Shown: in pieces, positions 32,681 through 40,743 of the stretch
How the letters are laid out: every line of letters starts with the position of its first letter
Position numbering within the stretch: the stretch's first letter is position 1
NCBI RefSeq assembly: GCF_030581075.1
Contig: NZ_JAUQSW010000015.1
Span: forward strand, 1 to 64,000
Direction: 5' to 3'
Length of the DNA: 64,000 nucleotides
Source: Hymenobacter cheonanensis
GTDB lineage: Bacteria > Bacteroidota > Bacteroidia > Cytophagales > Hymenobacteraceae
Notes under the pieces: generated by a model
The model's database searches: none
What the model saw: the letters and a program-made list of their open reading frames with translations, nothing else
What the model was told of the DNA's origin: nothing
Translations under genes and position numbers: made by a program

Positions 32681-33271
32681 CTACAACCCGGCCGCGTAGG
32701 CTTGCAGCATGGGGAAAAACTCCCGGAAATCGGCCTCGTAGGCAGTGTAGTTGCGGCGCAGCTCTTCGGTGGCCGTATCCATGCCCGAGCCGGGCGAGGC
32801 CCGGCGGCTGAGGCCCAGCAAGGCACGGGTAATGCCTTCGAGGTCAGCATAGTGCAGCAGCCAATTGTGCTGCACCAGGTGCGGAAAAAACCGCTGCACT
32901 GCCGCCGGAAAGCCGGCCTGCTGGCTAGCCAGCCCGGCATATACGCGCTGGGTAAAATCGGCCAGGCTTTCGCTGGAAAACTCCGTAAAGTAGCGCGCCA
33001 GAAAATGGTCCATAAACACGTCGGCCACCACGCCGGCGTACTTGCCGGCGCCGGCCGCGCGCAGGCGGGCCGTGGTGCGCCGCACCACGGGGTGCTGGTC
33101 GGTAAAGGTGTCGATGGCGCGGTGCGCCCGAATGCCGGCCTGCACGGCGGGCGCGTAGGTTTCGAGCTGGCGGCCGGGCACCGAGTCGGCAATAAACTGG
33201 CCCACTAGCCGCCCCGGGTAGTCAGGAGCGGCGGGCGGGCCAGCCAGGTAGAGGTGGGCCAGAAAATTCAT
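32681..33271 (-). CDS. acpH: Acyl carrier protein phosphodiesterase-like protein
   Basis: 196 aa. MNFLAHLYLAGPPAAPDYPG followed by GQFIADSVPGRQ, HRAIDTFTDQHPVVRRTTAR and VVADVFMDHFLARYF match AcpH, which removes the phosphopantetheine arm from holo-ACP. The family is a divergent HD-type hydrolase. ATG 33271 is selected because the conserved MNFLAHLYL must be the N-terminus; the frame is open further upstream. Confidence 0.85.
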   Translation of the reverse strand: MNFLAHLYLAGPPAAPDYPGRLVGQFIADSVPGRQLETYAPAVQAGIRAHRAIDTFTDQHPVVRRTTARLRAAGAGKYAGVVADVFMDHFLARYFTEFSSESLADFTQRVYAGLASQQAGFPAAVQRFFPHLVQHNWLLHYADLEGITRALLGLSRRASPGSGMDTATEELRRNYTAYEADFREFFPMLQAYAAGL

Positions 33272-33410
33272 AAGCGGGGCGGCAAAAGGGCCACGCGCGG
33301 CGGCCTGCCCCTTCCAACCGGGAAACCCGGGGCAAGTTCGGCCGTAAGCTAAAGCCGCAGCGTGCGCCCAGCGGGCCCGCTCCCGTTCTTTCCTTACCAT
33401 TTCCTTTCCC

Positions 33411-33923
33411 ATGTCTGATTCGAAAACCCCGGTCACCCACGACCTCAGCAAGCTATTTGAAAAAATCAAGGATGTGCGCATCGCCATGCTCTCGACCTTC
33501 GACGAGGAGCACGCGCTGCACAGCCGCCCAATGGGCACCATCAAGCCCGGCACCGACGGGGCACTGTACTTCTTCACCGATAAGGATTCGGCCAAGGTGT
33601 ACGAAGTAAAAAAAGACAATAAGGTTAACCTGAGCTACGCCAACCCTAGCGACAACGTGTACGTGTCGATATCGGGCACGGCCAGCGCCTACCGCGACGA
33701 AGCGAAGATTGCCGAGCTGTGGAGCGAGGACATGAAAGCCTGGTTTCCGAAAGGCAAGGAAGACCCGAACATCATGATTCTCAAAGTTGACATTGAGAAA
33801 GGTGAGTACTGGGATTCGCCCAGCGGCATGCTGTCGCGCGCCTACGCTTACTTGCGCGCCGTAACTACGGGCGAGGGCAGCAAGTCGGACGACGTGAATG
33901 AGCACGCCCAGGTGCAGAAATAA
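33411..33923 (+). CDS. Pyridoxamine 5'-phosphate oxidase-like general stress protein
   Basis: 170 aa. A split-barrel flavin-binding fold of the general stress protein 26 group: VRIAMLSTFDEEHALHSRPM, GALYFFTDKDSAKVYEVKKD, KVNLSYANPSDNVYVSISGT and a conserved acidic WSEDMKAWFPKGKEDPNI. These proteins bind FMN or FAD; the physiological substrate is unknown. Not true pyridoxine oxidases. Divergent from acpH. Confidence 0.85.
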   Translation: MSDSKTPVTHDLSKLFEKIKDVRIAMLSTFDEEHALHSRPMGTIKPGTDGALYFFTDKDSAKVYEVKKDNKVNLSYANPSDNVYVSISGTASAYRDEAKIAELWSEDMKAWFPKGKEDPNIMILKVDIEKGEYWDSPSGMLSRAYAYLRAVTTGEGSKSDDVNEHAQVQK

Positions 33924-33937
33924 GTATGAGGTAAAAG

Positions 33938-33984
33938 GTATGAATTATGAGGTGCCGGACGAGTTCATAACTCATAATTCATAC
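33938..33984. repeat. Perfect 14-bp inverted repeat
   Basis: GTATGAATTATGAG at 33938-33951 and CTCATAATTCATAC at 33971-33984 with a 19-base loop, just after the stress-protein stop and before its terminator. AT-rich, unlike the surroundings. Confidence 0.7.
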
Positions 33985-33990
33985 ATTAAA

Positions 33991-34022
33991 AAAAAGGCCG
34001 GACGCGATTCCGGCCTTTTTTT
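33991..34022 (+). terminator. Rho-independent terminator
   Basis: AAAAAGGCCGGA (33991-34002) pairs with TCCGGCCTTTTT (34009-34020); symmetrical A and T flanks. Confidence 0.9.
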
Positions 34023-34044
34023 GCGCCCGGTTGTTACCCTAGCC

Positions 34045-34743
34045 ATGCACATTACGCTTTCGCTGCTTACCCTGAAACCCGGCGCCAACGCGGCGCGCTG
34101 GGCGCTGGCCCAAATGGCCACGGCCCCGCGCCAGCTGCGGCGAGTAGCCGGGCTGCGCTTTTTTCAGCTATTGGGGAGCGGGGCCGACAACGGGTTTGGG
34201 TTTTGGCCCAACCTGCGGCGCTACGGCTTTATGGCCACCTGGGCCAGCCCCGAGGCAGCGGCCGAGTTCTTCGCCACCCACCCGGTGTGGGCCGCCTACC
34301 AGCAGCGCAGCACCGAGTGCTGGACCGCCGAGCTAGCCCCCCTGCAAGCCCACGGCACCTGGGACGACGTGCTGCCCTTCGGCGAACCAGCGGCCGGTGG
34401 CGGCCGGGCCGAGGGGCCGGTGGCCGTGCTCACGCGGGCCAGCATCCGGCTGCGGCGGGCACCGCGCTTCTGGCAGTTTGTGGAGCCCACGAGCCGGGCG
34501 CTGGCCGGGGCCGAGGGCCTGCAGCTGGCCATTGGGCTGGGCGAGCTGCCGCTGGTGCGCCAAGCCACGTTTAGCGTGTGGGAGTCGGTGCAGGCCATGC
34601 AGCAGTACGCCTACCGCGATGTGCGGCACCGCGAGGTAATCCAACTTACGCGCCGCGAGGGCTGGTACTCGGAAGAGTTATTTGCCCGCTTTCAGGTGCT
34701 GAGCAGTTCTGGCACCGTGGATGGCCGCAACCCGCTGGGCTAG
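34045..34743 (+). CDS. Spheroidene monooxygenase (CrtA)-like protein
   Basis: 232 aa. RRYGFMATWASPEAAAEFF, GPVAVLTRASIRLRRAPRFW and ATFSVWESVQAMQQYAYRD with a final REGWYSEELFARFQV match CrtA-type carotenoid ketolases/monooxygenases, which introduce a keto group at C-2. Hymenobacter makes ketolated and hydroxylated carotenoids, so a role in pigment tailoring is likely. No other carotenoid gene is close by. Start at ATG 34045, immediately after the terminator; the longer frame upstream runs across it. Confidence 0.8.
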   Translation: MHITLSLLTLKPGANAARWALAQMATAPRQLRRVAGLRFFQLLGSGADNGFGFWPNLRRYGFMATWASPEAAAEFFATHPVWAAYQQRSTECWTAELAPLQAHGTWDDVLPFGEPAAGGGRAEGPVAVLTRASIRLRRAPRFWQFVEPTSRALAGAEGLQLAIGLGELPLVRQATFSVWESVQAMQQYAYRDVRHREVIQLTRREGWYSEELFARFQVLSSSGTVDGRNPLG

Positions 34744-34901: not shown

Positions 34902-36521
34902 CTAGCGGCTGCCCAGCTGCAGGCGGTACTGGGTGGCTACCCAGGCGGCGGCCGTGGCGGGGGCCGTGGTGCCGGGCAGTACTCGCACAGTGTGGCTGGC
35001 CTGCACCAGGTCATCGGCCGGGCCAGGGTGGATGGTGAAGCCAGGGCCGGCGGCTTGCATAATGTCGGCTTGCAAAAACACGTTGCGCCCCGCGCCCCCA
35101 TAGAGGTGCACCCCAAAGCCCGGCGCCAGCCGCCCACCGAGCATAAACTCATCCTTACCCCCTAGCCCGTAGATGCTGAGGCGGATGGTGCGGCGGGCGT
35201 CGTAGACCTGCTCGCCGAGCAGGCTATCGGGCCGGGCCGGGCGGCGGGCAAATACGCGCAGGCGCAGCCGGCCCGGCCCCAGCCCCGTGAGTTCGAAGCG
35301 CTCGGGGGCGTCGGTGCCCGTCACCACGGCCTCCTGCTGCAATACCTCGTAATAGCGGCGGGCGGCGGCGGGCAGCGCATCGCGGCGGGCGCGCAGGGCG
35401 GGCAGCAGCTCCTGGGTCATGCGGGCGCGCACCTCGGCGGGCACGGCTTGCAGGGCCTGGGCCAGCACGGCATCGGGCAGGCGGCGGCGCAGCGAGTCGG
35501 CCTCGGCCAGGAAAACTGCCTCGGGCAGCAGGGCCAGGGCCGTGTGGTCGAGGGGCCGAGCGGTGGTGGTGAGCGGGCCCACATCGGCGGGCACGAGGTG
35601 GGGGTTAAAGGTCTGGTAGCGCGGGTGCACCCACGACACGCAGCGCGTGAGCCAGCCATCATCGAAGCGAAAAAACGCCTGGTCGCGGTCGCGCGGGATG
35701 GGTCGCAACACCGTGCCGCCAGTTCCCGCAAATGCTGCCCAGCGCCACTGGTCGGCCCGGCGGCTCCAGTCGCCCACCAGCAGGTCGAGCAGGCGGGCGC
35801 GCAGGTACGCCCGGGGCGCCAGGTGGGCAGCCGGGCCACGCAGCACCTGCATCAGCATACTATCGGAGCCCACCACCCGGCGGGCGCGGCCAAAGCTGGC
35901 GGCGTGGCTTTGGTCGTTGGCGGGGCGCTCTTCGAGCAAATACAAAGCCGGCCGAAAGCGCGTGCGCCACTCGCCCAGCGCGGCATCAGGCAGCAGATAC
36001 ACCAGGCGCGGGTTGGTATGAAACACGCCGGCGGCGCGGGCCAGGGCCGTGGCCACGTAGGCGCCGTAGGGCGGGGCGGCGCAGGTCTGGTCGCGCAGCA
36101 CGGGCGCCACCAGGCGGCCTAGCCAGCCCACCGTCAGGCTGCGGCTCAGGTCCTTATCTACCGAGCGCAGCACGAAAATGCGGCCGTCGGGCGTGCGCAG
36201 GCGCAGGGTATTGGTTTGGAAGCTGCCCCCGGCCCGCAGCGGCGTGAAGCCCAGCTGCCCCAGGCGCAGCACCGGCGCGCTCACGGGCGTGGCCCACAGC
36301 GGGCGGTAGTGGCGGCCCCACAGGCGCTGCCAAAGCCAGCCGCGCCGGGCGTAGTGCGCGCCGGCCGCTACCCGCACCGTGCTGGAATCGGCACTGAACA
36401 CCGGCCCCGTTTCGCCGGGGGCGGGCGTAGCAGGTTCGGCGCAGCCACCCAGGCCCAGCACGGCCAGGGGCAGCCCCAGAACCGCCCACTTCCTCCCAAA
36501 CGATGCTCTACGTACTGCCAC
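34902..36521 (-). CDS. Kinase-like lipoprotein, degenerate paralogue
   Basis: 539 aa. Lipobox LGLGGC (C27), then a domain shared with the divergent neighbour: LRSVDKD with K123, an AAPPYGAYVATALARAAGVF block, LLDLLVGDWSRRADQWRWA and PRDRDQAFFRFDDG. In the neighbour the second motif reads GDWDRH; here D and H are replaced (S253, R255) while DRDQ (278-281) remains, so catalysis may be lost. A C-terminal strand region has GLGGKDEFML and GGAGRNVFLQ. Starts at GTG 36521. Likely an envelope protein; function unknown. Confidence 0.7.
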   Translation of the reverse strand: MAVRRASFGRKWAVLGLPLAVLGLGGCAEPATPAPGETGPVFSADSSTVRVAAGAHYARRGWLWQRLWGRHYRPLWATPVSAPVLRLGQLGFTPLRAGGSFQTNTLRLRTPDGRIFVLRSVDKDLSRSLTVGWLGRLVAPVLRDQTCAAPPYGAYVATALARAAGVFHTNPRLVYLLPDAALGEWRTRFRPALYLLEERPANDQSHAASFGRARRVVGSDSMLMQVLRGPAAHLAPRAYLRARLLDLLVGDWSRRADQWRWAAFAGTGGTVLRPIPRDRDQAFFRFDDGWLTRCVSWVHPRYQTFNPHLVPADVGPLTTTARPLDHTALALLPEAVFLAEADSLRRRLPDAVLAQALQAVPAEVRARMTQELLPALRARRDALPAAARRYYEVLQQEAVVTGTDAPERFELTGLGPGRLRLRVFARRPARPDSLLGEQVYDARRTIRLSIYGLGGKDEFMLGGRLAPGFGVHLYGGAGRNVFLQADIMQAAGPGFTIHPGPADDLVQASHTVRVLPGTTAPATAAAWVATQYRLQLGSR

Positions 36522-36720
36522 TGGCGCATCGGAGCCGGCATTTGCACCGGCATCCTGACTTTAAAAAGTAAAAAGGCCGCAGGCCTGCCCCGTATAGCGC
36601 AAGGCCGGCCTATGGGGTTGCCGGCCAGCGCTAGCCTGGCCCCTATCTTTTTGGGCGCGGGCTACGTTAGACAAGCTTGGGCAGCGCTGGCTGCCGTGCA
36701 CCTCGTTATTCTGGCCCGTC

Positions 36721-38304
36721 TTGCGCTCTGTTACCCTATTATTATCATCTGGCGGGCTGCTGCTTGGGCTAGCCACCGGCTGCGCCCGTAAACATTATTT
36801 CCAGCCCGATGCCCGGCTGCCGGCTTCGGCCCAGCCCGTTGCCAGGCCTGCTACCACCGACAGCGTGTGGGCCACGGCCGGCCGCCAGTACAACCGCCAC
36901 AGCAAAGCCTACCACCTGTTGATGGGGCCGCACCACCGGGCCGTGTGGGCCGCCCCGGTGCGGGTGCCGGTGCTACGCCTGGCCACGGCCGTGCCCCAGG
37001 CGGGCCGCCTCACCCCCACCAAGCTGGGCGGCGGCTTTCAAAGCACCAGCCTCACGCTGCTAGGGGCCGATGGCCGACCCTACGTCATTCGCTCGCTCGA
37101 TAAAGACCCTTCGCGCATTATGCCCGAGTGGCTGCAGAAAACATTTATAACCAATGGCTTGCGCGATGGCACTTCGGCCGGCCTCCCCTACGGGGCGCTG
37201 GTGGTGCCCACGCTATCGCAAAAGCTGGGCGTGCCGCACACGCACCCACGCATCTTTTACGTGCCGCCCGATGCCGACAACCTGGGCTCGGCCGAGGCCA
37301 ACGAGCGCCTGCGCGGCAAGCTGGTGCTGCTCGAAGAAAAGTATGACGGCGAGCGGGTACAGTCTTCGCTGCTGCCCGGGGCTACCAAGTTTATCAGCGA
37401 TGAGAAGATGCGGGCGCACCTCTACGCCGACCCGCGCAACCGCCCCGACCAGCTGGCCCTGCTGCGGGCGCGCCTGCTCGATGTGCTGATTGGCGACTGG
37501 GACCGGCACTCGGGCCAGTGGCAGTGGGGCGAGCTGCCCAACCCGGCTAGGCCCGGCGGCACGCTGTTCGTGGCCGTGCCCAAGGACCGCGACCAGGTGT
37601 TTTTCCGCATGTCGGACGGGGCAGTGCCGTGGCTGATGACGCGCAAGTTTTTGGTGCGCCACCTCGTCACGTTCAAGCCCGACTTTCATGATGTGGTGGC
37701 CCTCACCGGCCAGGGCCGCTACGTAGACCAGCGCGGCCTCAATGCCCTGAGCCGGCGCGACTTTGCCGCGGCGGCCCGCTTCGCAGTGGCTAGCCTCCCC
37801 GATTCGGCCCTGGCCCGGGCCGTGCGCCACCTGCCGCCCGCCGTGTACGCCCTGGAGGGCCCGCGCCTGCTGCACGATTTACGGAGCCGCCGCGACCAGC
37901 TGCCGCAGCTGGCCCAAACCTACTACGAGCTGAAAGCCGAGCGCCCCGTGGTGGCCGGCACCGAGTTGCCCGACCATTTTGCCGTGGCCCGCACCCCCGA
38001 CTCGACCACCGTGCGCGTGTACAACCGCACGCTCGGGGCCGATTCGCTGTTTTACCAGCGCACGTTTTACACCCGCGAAACCAAGCGCCTCACCCTGGAA
38101 GGGCTAGGGGGCAACGACGTGTTTGAGCTTACCGGCCACGGCCTCAAAATCGTAGTTCACGCCGGCGCGGGCGCGGATGTGCTGCGTGCTACCTCGCGCC
38201 GCCGCCTGCGCTACGAGCCCGAGTCAAACGGTACGCTCAATACCCCCGCCCCCACCAAAAAGAAGCAGCGTTTCGACAACTACGACCGCCTCACGGACGA
38301 GTAG
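36721..38304 (+). CDS. Kinase-like lipoprotein with DRH and DRDQ motifs
   Basis: 527 aa, lipobox LATGC (C21). The central domain shows YVIRSLDKD (K128), a helix GLPYGALVVPTLSQKLGVPH, LLEEK (E205-E206), LLDVLIGDWDRHSGQWQWGE (D261, R262, H263, Q266) and VPKDRDQVFF (D289, D291). A Lys, a GDxDRHxxQ loop and a DxD are the layout of HipA/PI3K/Fam20-type atypical kinases. In large Bacteroidota proteins I recall the same domain fused to an outer-membrane barrel. The C-terminus has glycine-rich GLGGNDVFEL and GAGADV turns. TTG at 36721 starts the signal peptide. Confidence 0.72.
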   Translation: MRSVTLLLSSGGLLLGLATGCARKHYFQPDARLPASAQPVARPATTDSVWATAGRQYNRHSKAYHLLMGPHHRAVWAAPVRVPVLRLATAVPQAGRLTPTKLGGGFQSTSLTLLGADGRPYVIRSLDKDPSRIMPEWLQKTFITNGLRDGTSAGLPYGALVVPTLSQKLGVPHTHPRIFYVPPDADNLGSAEANERLRGKLVLLEEKYDGERVQSSLLPGATKFISDEKMRAHLYADPRNRPDQLALLRARLLDVLIGDWDRHSGQWQWGELPNPARPGGTLFVAVPKDRDQVFFRMSDGAVPWLMTRKFLVRHLVTFKPDFHDVVALTGQGRYVDQRGLNALSRRDFAAAARFAVASLPDSALARAVRHLPPAVYALEGPRLLHDLRSRRDQLPQLAQTYYELKAERPVVAGTELPDHFAVARTPDSTTVRVYNRTLGADSLFYQRTFYTRETKRLTLEGLGGNDVFELTGHGLKIVVHAGAGADVLRATSRRRLRYEPESNGTLNTPAPTKKKQRFDNYDRLTDE

Positions 38305-38382: not shown

Positions 38383-39621
38383 ATGATGAATGCAGCTGCT
38401 TTCCGGGCTTTTCGCAGCCGCAATTTTCGGCTGTTCTTCGGCGGGCAGTCGCTGTCGCTACTCGGCACCTGGATGCAGAAAACGGCGGTGAGCTGGGTAG
38501 TATATGCCCAAACGCACTCCAAGTTTATGCTGGGCGTGAGCGTGTTTGCCACGCTGTTTCCCTCGGCCCTGTTTTCGCTGCTGGGCGGCGTGGTGGCCGA
38601 CCGCTACAGCCGCTACCGGGTGCTGCTGCTCACGCAGGTGCTCTCGATGGGGCAGGCGGCCCTGCTGGCGCTGGCTGTGTACTGGCGGCCCGATGCGGTG
38701 TGGCCAATTATGGCTCTGAGCGCCGCGCTGGGCGTCATCAACGCCTTCGATGTGCCGGCCCGGCAGTCGCTGGTTTACGAGCTGGTGGCCGATAAGCAGG
38801 ACGTGCCCAACGCCGTGGCCCTCAACTCGACGATGCTCAACCTGAGCAAGCTGCTAGGCCCCGCCCTGGCGGGCCTGGCCATTGAGCGGCTCGGGGCCAC
38901 CGTGTGCTTTGGCCTGAATGCCTTCAGCTTCGTGGCCGTTATCGGGTCGCTGCTGGCCATGCGCCTGCCGGCCTTCGTAGCTAGACCTTCGACCCAAAAC
39001 CTGCTGGCCGAACTCGCCGATGGCTTCCACTACGTGCAAGCCACGCCGGCTATCCGCTTCATTATCAGCACGCTCGGGCTCACGGCTTTGCTGGTGCTGC
39101 CCTTCACCACGCTCATGCCCGTGTACGCCAAGGACATTTTTGGGGGCACGGCCACCACCTTCGGCCTGCTCGACGGCGCCATTGGGCTGGGCGGGCTAGT
39201 GGGGGCGCTGTACCTGGCCGGGCTGCCGCCGGCCACCAACCTAAATAAAGTAGTGACGTTCACCACGTTCGTATTTGGGGCGGGGCTGCTGCTTTTTGCC
39301 TACACGCCCTGGTATGGGCTGGCGCTGGCCTTTCTGGTAGTGGCCGCGTTTGGGATGATGGCCCAGACTACCATCAGCGTGACGCTGCTGCAAACGCTGG
39401 TGCTGCCCGCCATGCGGGGGCGGGTTATCAGCCTCTACGTGCTGGTGTACACGGCCGCGCTGCCGCTGGGCAGCGTGGTAGTGGGGGCCGTGTCGCAGCG
39501 CCTCGGCGTGCAGCCTACCGTACTGGCCGAGAGCCTGTTGGCTTTCGGCATTGGCCTGCTGTATTGGCGCAATCTGCGGCAGGCGGCGCCCGCCGCCCCC
39601 CCCGAGCTGGCCGCCCGCTAG
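38383..39621 (+). CDS. MFS transporter (EntS/MFS_3 type)
   Basis: 412 aa, 11-12 transmembrane helices. FRSRNFRLFFGGQSLSLLGT, the loop GGVVADRYSRYRVLLL and FDVPARQSLVYELVADKQDV are typical of the MFS_3 group that includes the enterobactin exporter EntS. Substrate not deducible. It ends three bases before the convergent topoisomerase stop, so no room for a shared terminator. Confidence 0.82.
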   Translation: MMNAAAFRAFRSRNFRLFFGGQSLSLLGTWMQKTAVSWVVYAQTHSKFMLGVSVFATLFPSALFSLLGGVVADRYSRYRVLLLTQVLSMGQAALLALAVYWRPDAVWPIMALSAALGVINAFDVPARQSLVYELVADKQDVPNAVALNSTMLNLSKLLGPALAGLAIERLGATVCFGLNAFSFVAVIGSLLAMRLPAFVARPSTQNLLAELADGFHYVQATPAIRFIISTLGLTALLVLPFTTLMPVYAKDIFGGTATTFGLLDGAIGLGGLVGALYLAGLPPATNLNKVVTFTTFVFGAGLLLFAYTPWYGLALAFLVVAAFGMMAQTTISVTLLQTLVLPAMRGRVISLYVLVYTAALPLGSVVVGAVSQRLGVQPTVLAESLLAFGIGLLYWRNLRQAAPAAPPELAAR

Positions 39622-39624
39622 GGG

Positions 39625-40743
39625 CTACACCTCGGCCAGCATCTCCAGCACCAGGTGCTCGGTGGGCGAAAGCTCGTCGCGGTCCTGCGGGTCGGCATCG
39701 TGGCGGCGCAGATACTCAATAAGTTTGCCCGATTTGAACAGCTCCGTCACCTGCGGATGAATGTAGTACTTGGAGCACACGGTGGGCGTGTTGCCGAGGT
39801 TGCTGGCAACCTCTTTGGTAGCTTGGCGAATGGCTTTTTCGGGGGCTAGCTCCACGTCGCCGTTCAGCACTGTTTCGAGGCACTGCACCATTTTTACGGT
39901 GCCGCCCCAGGTGCGGAAGTCTTTGGCCGAGAGCGCGATGCCGGTATGCTGGTGCAAGTAATCATTCACATGGCCCGACTCCAGGGGGTGACGCTGGCCA
40001 TCGGCGCCGTAGAACTGAAACAGGTGCTGGCCCGGTATCTCCTTGCACTTGCGCACGAGGCTAGCCAGCTTGCGGTCGTGAATGGTGACGTCGTGGGCCA
40101 CGCCTTTTTTACCCACGAAGGAAAACCGCACGTCGCCGTGGCTGATTGCCACGTGGTCATCGAGCAGCGTGGTGAGACCGTAGCTTTTGTTTTTCTTGGC
40201 GTATTCCTCGTTGCCGATGCGGATAAACGACTGGTCCATGAGCGTGAGCACGAGGGCCACCACCTTATCGCGGTCGAGGCCGGGGCGGGCCAGGTCTTTG
40301 CGCAGCTGCTGGCGCAGCTCGCCCAGCTTTTGGCCGAAGGCCAGCAGGCGCGAAAACTTGGTGAGCGAGCGGGCGGCATCCCAGGCCGGGTGGTAGCGGT
40401 ACTGCTTGCGGCCGGCCGCGTCGTGGCCCGTCACCTGCAGGTGAAAGCTGGGATTGGGCGCAATCCACACGTCGGTCCAGGCCGGCGGAATCACGAAGCT
40501 GTGGATGCGGTCCAGCGTTTTGGCATCGGTAATTTTCTCGCCTTTCGCATTGACATACACGAACTCATGCGCCCCGCTAGCCTCGCGGCGCAGGCCAGGG
40601 CCGGCATCGGTGGCGTAGCGCAGGCCGGCCAGCTCGGCCTGGCGGGCGGGGTCTTTGTAAAGCTCGTGGGCGGCCAGCTCGTGGATGGGCGGCAGGCTTT
40701 TCTTGCGGGTTTTGGGGCGGGGCTGCACGGGGGCGGTGGGCAT
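39625..40743 (-). CDS. DNA topoisomerase IB (poxvirus type)
   Basis: 372 aa. The N-terminal domain GLRYATDAGPGLRREASGAH recognises DNA; the catalytic domain holds LTLMDQSFIRIGNEEYAKKN (Arg), KDFRTWGGT (Arg), and KYYIHP with the nucleophile at about Y327. It relaxes supercoils by cutting one strand with a 3'-phosphotyrosine link. The enzyme is common in environmental bacteria alongside topoisomerases I and III. Convergent with the MFS gene. Confidence 0.93.
   Translation of the reverse strand: MPTAPVQPRPKTRKKSLPPIHELAAHELYKDPARQAELAGLRYATDAGPGLRREASGAHEFVYVNAKGEKITDAKTLDRIHSFVIPPAWTDVWIAPNPSFHLQVTGHDAAGRKQYRYHPAWDAARSLTKFSRLLAFGQKLGELRQQLRKDLARPGLDRDKVVALVLTLMDQSFIRIGNEEYAKKNKSYGLTTLLDDHVAISHGDVRFSFVGKKGVAHDVTIHDRKLASLVRKCKEIPGQHLFQFYGADGQRHPLESGHVNDYLHQHTGIALSAKDFRTWGGTVKMVQCLETVLNGDVELAPEKAIRQATKEVASNLGNTPTVCSKYYIHPQVTELFKSGKLIEYLRRHDADPQDRDELSPTEHLVLEMLAEV

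Follow-up and report, generated by a model that had tools for sequence, protein, structure and literature searches.

The locus described here (positions 34902-38304) lies in a window of 64,000 nucleotides from Hymenobacter cheonanensis (contig NZ_JAUQSW010000015.1; the genome comprises 5.36 Mb in 22 contigs). It consists of two divergent genes coding for the putative lipoproteins P0001 and P0002. On balance we favor the explanation that these are an envelope kinase of the CotH/PI4KII type (P0002) and a conserved pseudokinase partner (P0001). The fold class of the proteins, the conservation of their residues, the conserved pairing of the genes and the selection on both copies were computed here. 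The predicted structures are best read as placing the family in the protein-kinase-like (PKL) superfamily, where CotH, PI4KII, HipA and Fam20 appear to be nearest.

P0002 (527 amino acid residues, positions 36721-38304, forward strand) contains a kinase-like domain with intact GDWDRH and PKDRDQ motifs. Its paralogue P0001 (539 residues, positions 34902-36521, reverse strand) also contains a kinase-like domain, reads GDWSRR and PRDRDQ, and has lost the catalytic Asp; both assignments come from the sequence and the fold match. According to the coordinates of the reading frames, the two genes are separated by 199 bases (36522-36720). The proteins share 38% identity across 481 columns (E 3e-72), and their motifs run GGGFQS...YVIRSLDKD...LLEEK...GDWDRHSGQW...PKDRDQVF in P0002 and GGSFQT...FVLRSVDKD...LLEER...GDWSRRADQW...PRDRDQAF in P0001. 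An earlier sequence-only reading of this stretch had noticed the two divergent kinase-like reading frames, the common motif set DKD, GDW, Q and DRDQ, and the difference between the rightward GDWDRH and the leftward GDWSRR. All of this agrees with the letters and codons, as do the positions of both frames and the numbering of K128, D261, H263, Q266, D289 and D291 in P0002.

The AlphaFold models were each built from an alignment of only 12 sequences. The model of P0002 covers 507 residues (pLDDT 61.7, pTM 0.63) and that of the P0001 core 386 residues (pLDDT 70.9, pTM 0.75). Ahead of the GDWDRH loop, the P0002 model has the order strand-strand-strand-helices-strand-strand-helices. The best Foldseek matches of P0002 (nine, E 7.6e-5 to 1e-3) are CtkA, YihE, Rio2, AmiN, PI4KIIalpha and 6ykg (VPS34), and those of P0001 (six, in the same range of E) are PI4KIIalpha, CtkA, CotH and HipA. 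VIA re-ranks Foldseek's own top 1000, and among the 50 matches listed for each model all are PKL folds, as judged by their titles. The P0001 core matches CotH (5jd9) with Z 15.6, rmsd 3.8 and 249 aligned residues, followed by PI4KIIbeta (14.4), CtkA (14.1), actin-fragmin kinase (11.8), Fam20C (11.6), Fam20A (11.5) and HipA (11.1). The Z-values for P0002 are 11.2 for PI4KIIalpha, 10.2 for LepB and 9.8 for both CtkA and VPS34; LepB was counted as kinase-like because a passage of PMC9758233 lists LepB_N as a PKL fold. The two-lobed kinase fold of the superfamily is thus found in both models, with best Z of 11.2 and 15.6 at moderate model confidence. The kinase likeness suspected from the letters is borne out in these predictions, and a kinase-like fold is highly likely for both proteins. 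A beta-rich region follows the kinase core at about residues 410-490 of the P0002 model and lies within the shared domain.

The putative active site was compared in 86 phylum-level domains, taken from the best-scoring loci (L050-L075) and from loci picked among the listed matches (L166-L225), where some genomes give two. R124, K128, D254, D259, D261, D289 and D291 are invariant (86/86). Position 263 is His in 84 and Thr in two, and position 266 is Gln in 83 and Asn in three. The conservation of the DRH and DRDQ residues, on which the kinase proposal depended, is therefore upheld. Two phylum relatives, L169 and L171, read ADSDRTPDNV, retaining the Asp with Thr for His and Asn for Gln. The order of a catalytic Asp followed by a metal-binding Asp, as in PKL proteins, is seen in P0002 with D261 and D289 (86 of 86 phylum domains), while P0001 is without the first. 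A candidate glycine loop, GGGFQS, is formed by residues 103-108 of P0002 (positions 37027-37044, forward strand) and is recognized by sequence and conservation. The fragment RSLDKD (37090-37107, forward strand) contains R124 and K128, of which either may be the nucleotide-binding basic residue. Both are kept as candidates because R124 is as invariant as K128 and sits on the predicted strand 120-125, whereas K128 comes after it.

It is important to compare these residues with those of CotH, the spore-coat kinase (PF08757), which is the best structural match of the P0001 core and also the best profile match. When a 166-row profile, in which 19 phylum rows occur twice, was aligned to 24 Bacteroidota CotH proteins, the score was 29.5 (hhalign probability 8; P 0.0043 for a single comparison). 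The controls scored lower, with 15.4 when the profile was reversed and 13.9 with a metallophosphoesterase profile. In this alignment DWDRH falls on NWD, and PIPRDRDqaF falls on IPyDyDntf, so that DWD...IPRDRD corresponds to the NWD...IPxDxD of CotH. The aligned Asp residues are found at positions 224 and 247 of the solved B. cereus chain. As each lies four below the corresponding published residue of B. subtilis (D228 and D251), we infer that the residues are the same. According to a passage of PMC7821199, B. subtilis CotH D228Q and D251A are inactive. By the profile alignment and the chain positions, D261 and D289 of P0002 are the equivalents of these two catalytic residues. The first is located in the catalytic loop GDWDRHSGQW (residues 258-267, positions 37492-37521, forward strand) and the second, which also corresponds to the DFG Asp, in the metal-binding motif PKDRDQ (residues 287-292, positions 37579-37596, forward strand). 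CotH likewise acts outside the cytoplasm. It differs in that the solved chain has no RHxxQW after the Asp, in that P0001 and P0002 are predicted to be envelope-anchored and paired with a pseudokinase, and in that its Pfam model misses 30 of 31 members of the present family at E 0.1.

The other known kinases show similar mixtures. PI4KIIalpha and PI4KIIbeta are the top structural match of P0002 (the former) and reach about 14 with P0001, and the human PI4KIIalpha fragments NTDRGNDNW...AIDNGLAF resemble GDWDRHSGQW...PKDRDQVF of P0002 by eye. However, PI4KII is a eukaryotic lipid kinase, the identity in the structural alignments is about 10-13%, and no sequence match was found. The HipA proteins of Bacteroidota have a DxH-type catalytic loop, and the register of the profile comparison is right (DWDRH on N-DDH), which is a hint only. 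The HipA_C model (PF07804) does not match P0001 or P0002, and a passage of the literature assigns HipA to a toxin-antitoxin type system. P0002 is probably catalytic.

The corresponding loop of P0001 is degraded to GDWSRRADQW (residues 250-259, positions 35745-35774, reverse strand), while the metal-binding motif is retained as PRDRDQ (residues 276-281, positions 35679-35696, reverse strand). In the pairwise alignment, the equivalents of K128, D261, H263, Q266, D289 and D291 are K123, S253, R255, Q258, D278 and D280. P0001 very likely has no kinase activity. It has what defines a pseudokinase, a kinase fold with a lost catalytic residue whose loss is conserved in orthologues: of the 61 genomes sampled in the genus, 59 have SRR, and an intact SR[RH] partner is present in 11 of 14 selected regions of other genera. 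A mere decay of the gene was considered and rejected, because its dN/dS resembles that of the DRH copy and the substitution is retained from genus to genus. For six close orthologues (15 ortholog pairs each) dN/dS is 0.05-0.26 for P0002 and 0.09-0.26 for P0001, and both proteins are under purifying selection.

The same selection on close orthologues of P0001 would also fit a protein that is alive with a changed chemistry, such as the nucleotidyl transfer of SelO, in which the basic residues, the Gln (or Asn) and the DRD that its relatives retain would be used. Bacterial pseudokinases with new enzymatic functions are listed in a passage of PMC12599244. However, nothing points positively to another kind of active site, and the S-type motifs read have Ser in place of the base, followed by Arg and then Arg or His. 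This alternative is considered improbable.

The relationship of the two types was examined in a quick maximum likelihood tree of 80 rows, with SH-aLRT values as the only support and no bootstrap. The S-type rows form one clade (21 rows, SH-aLRT 91) beside a clade of lipoprotein DRH rows (27 rows, 100), and proteins reading GKH, described below, form a third (100); a value of 86 supports the separation of the lipoproteins from the remaining rows. These sequences are most simply read as two losses of the catalytic Asp, one in the S type and one in the GKH type. Two tolerated losses could also mean that P0001 and P0002 are both binders with a kinase fold, such as envelope sensors of nucleotides or glycans or scaffolds, with no catalysis at all; we know of no ATP source outside the cytoplasm, which points the same way. 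The invariance of D261, D289 and D291 in 86 of 86 domains exceeds the needs of a binding role, and we regard this possibility as unlikely.

The pairing of an active with an inactive copy, which the sequence-only reading had expected to recur in other genomes, does so. By motif, 59 of the 61 genomes sampled in the genus have a divergent DRH plus SRR pair, 58 identified by script and one by eye (G028, where the contig end cuts the SRR motif). This covers 60 loci, and the only match in one genome (G036, 82% complete) has the length of a fused protein. Both domains are whole in one frame in 36 of the 40 loci with long flanks; the S-type matches of G037 and G052 reach only to about position 354 of 446. 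The other 20 loci have short flanks that leave the whole partner genes mostly outside view. In four other genera, 14 regions were chosen for lipoprotein-sized matches, not randomly, and 11 of these contain intact DRH and SRR or SRH genes. The two genes run in tandem in genus g218 and divergently in the remaining three genera. Some Hymenobacter genomes (L023, L029, L035, L129, L132 and others) have an additional DRH lipoprotein in tandem, and several of these third copies have PKDRDM in place of the PKDRDQ metal motif.

The neighborhood of the pair is also conserved. A topoisomerase IB gene (PF01028, window positions 39625-40743), separated from the pair by an MFS gene (38383-39621), is near it in 38 of 40 fetched loci of the genus. 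It was considered as an operon partner and is taken as stable synteny, not as a functional link. Such a conserved neighborhood means that the linkage of P0001 and P0002 could itself be inertia. The two would then be independent paralogues with separate substrates that are merely still neighbors, and the divergent order in Hymenobacter against the tandem order in a sister genus, as well as the stretches with a DRH gene only (L238, L243), would fit this. Nevertheless, adjacency survives the tandem-to-divergent change and holds in 59 of 61 genomes, so that we give independence a low probability. That P0001 and P0002 act together is somewhat favored. On the other side of the pair, positions 32681-34743 of the window contain genes for an ACP phosphodiesterase (PF04336), a pyridoxamine oxidase-like protein (PF16242) and a DUF3291 protein below the cut-off, a neighborhood common to six of the 40 genus loci.

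Signal peptides with a lipobox-like end are found in both proteins. The predicted lipidation sites, supported by the sequence and by relatives, are Cys21 of P0002 (after LATG; positions 36781-36783, forward strand) and Cys27 of P0001 (after LGLGG; 36441-36443, reverse strand). In the loci of the genus and the family, a regular expression found the lipobox in 73 of 84 DRH-type rows and 46 of 68 S-type rows. By eye, a Cys is at the equivalent place in all 11 remaining DRH-type rows and in 16 of the 22 remaining S-type rows, leaving six S-type rows with no convincing lipobox Cys (L036, L131, L132, L234, L236 and L244). Because of these counts, predicted lipidation is general in the DRH type and usual, not universal, in the S type. 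The earlier claim that both proteins are lipid-anchored thus agrees with the predicted sites of the pair itself and cannot be extended to all S-type relatives.

The domain of about 450 residues is present in 144 of 395 sampled genomes of Bacteroidota, in 100 of 100 of the bacterial family and in 61 of 61 of the genus. A scan of P0001 and P0002 against Pfam and NCBIfam gave no family beyond a PF01068 match at E 0.28, which is taken as chance level. The family is undescribed and absent from Pfam; in the titles and abstract openings of open-licence literature no paper on it was found, nor one combining Hymenobacter with pseudokinase. Five of 72,556 plasmid records match; in four the annotation is hypothetical protein, and the fifth has no feature. 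The 17 pattern matches in viral contigs include no relative, and phage records gave no match.

In most of the phylum-level loci read closely, the domain is part of a longer chain. Among the 26 loci L050-L075, 19 have at least 400 residues before the domain and about 390 after it, one has about 265 before it, four have a C-terminal extension only, and two consist of the domain alone. Seven relatives from these loci were scanned. The four long ones have a Metallophos match (one below the cut-off) and an Omp85- or ShlB-type barrel, the two of middle length gave barrel matches only, and the short one gave none; the NCBIfam Omp85 model is below its whole-protein cut-off in every match. These fusions share the domain with 31-37% identity to P0002, and they differ in their length of about 1,240-1,400 residues, with an N-terminal phosphoesterase and a C-terminal Omp85-type barrel, from P0001 and P0002, which are the domain alone behind a lipobox. 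The genome of the window has two fused copies, both with an Omp85 match below the cut-off. One (L008) reads GDWDRH with Metallophos above the cut-off, and the other (L010, contig C5) reads ADFGKH with Metallophos just below it. Of the 61 genomes sampled in the genus, 51 have the fused GKH form at more than 570 bits, and all 30 copies read (L136-L165) have the motif ADFGKHEDNW. The words kinase, phosphatase and phosphoesterase are all absent from the main text of an Omp85 survey (PMC4104836).

A wider picture may tentatively be drawn from these arrangements. Bacteroidota might have an envelope phosphorylation system in which the CotH/PI4KII-like domain often sits between a phosphoesterase and an Omp85 barrel, a writer and an eraser in one chain. 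In the Hymenobacteraceae a lipoprotein kinase would have separated from it, together with a pseudokinase of its own, and, as a fused GKH pseudokinase exists in the same lineage, the kinase-pseudokinase pairing would have arisen twice.

Several observations weigh against a kinase with a pseudokinase partner. The confidence of the models is moderate and their alignments are shallow (12 sequences each), and the Foldseek query TM is low, 0.12-0.41 in the 50 rows shown per search. PF08757 does not match P0001 or P0002, and matches one of 31 family members at E 0.098, a value that nine chance families equal or surpass. Searches of PDB sequences, with the single protein and with the profile, gave no chain below E 0.79, and none of the five found is a kinase. 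The profile match to HipA lacks significance (score 20.7, P 0.066, against 11.2 for the reversed control) and becomes weaker with more sequences (16.8, P 0.22, reversed control 14.4). The pair is damaged in places: the DRH gene is split in G010, the S-type gene is a short remnant in G012, and G005 has a split S-type gene and a single stop in the DRH match. In the other genera, the S-type gene is broken in L235, the stretches fetched for L238 and L243 show the DRH gene only, and about 3.5 kb separate the two genes of L234. Adjacent genes, moreover, need not encode binding partners. Finally, little ATP is expected outside the cytoplasm.

The sequence-only proposal of an enzyme with a pseudoenzyme partner holds for the fold, the conservation and the pairing; for catalysis, use of ATP or another donor, substrate and physical complex we infer the following arrangement. 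P0002 would bind a Mg-nucleotide through the glycine loop, R124 or K128, Q266, and D289 and D291. D261 would be the catalytic base, and a component of the envelope, whether protein, glycan or lipid, would be phosphorylated. The reaction would require periplasmic or external ATP, or another phosphate donor. P0001 would retain the nucleotide- and metal-binding residues and lack the base, with Ser for Asp. As a non-catalytic protein it would most likely bind P0002 or its substrate and set the activity, as Fam20A does for Fam20C. The fused relatives suggest a natural setting beside the outer membrane and a phosphoesterase.

The analogy with Fam20 concerns this working mode, and no membership in Fam20 is claimed. 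Both Fam20 folds are in the VIA list of P0001. On the other hand, the Fam20 Pfam models match neither P0001 nor P0002, nor any of the 31 members at E 0.1, so that the likeness is one of fold; no sequence homology was found, and P0001 and P0002 are bacterial lipoproteins. The residue missing in Fam20A is not known to be the catalytic-loop Asp. A passage of PMC4421793 describes Fam20C as a secreted kinase activated by its inactive paralogue Fam20A, in which the missing negatively charged residue is another one than in P0001.

Few bacterial kinases work outside the cytoplasm, and the source of their phosphate is an open question. If the proposed explanation is true, a phylum-wide family absent from Pfam would offer a conserved pair of active and inactive proteins open to direct testing. 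The natural fusion of the kinase-like domain with a phosphoesterase and a barrel would tie phosphorylation to the outer membrane, and the pair itself would be a bacterial parallel to Fam20C and Fam20A.

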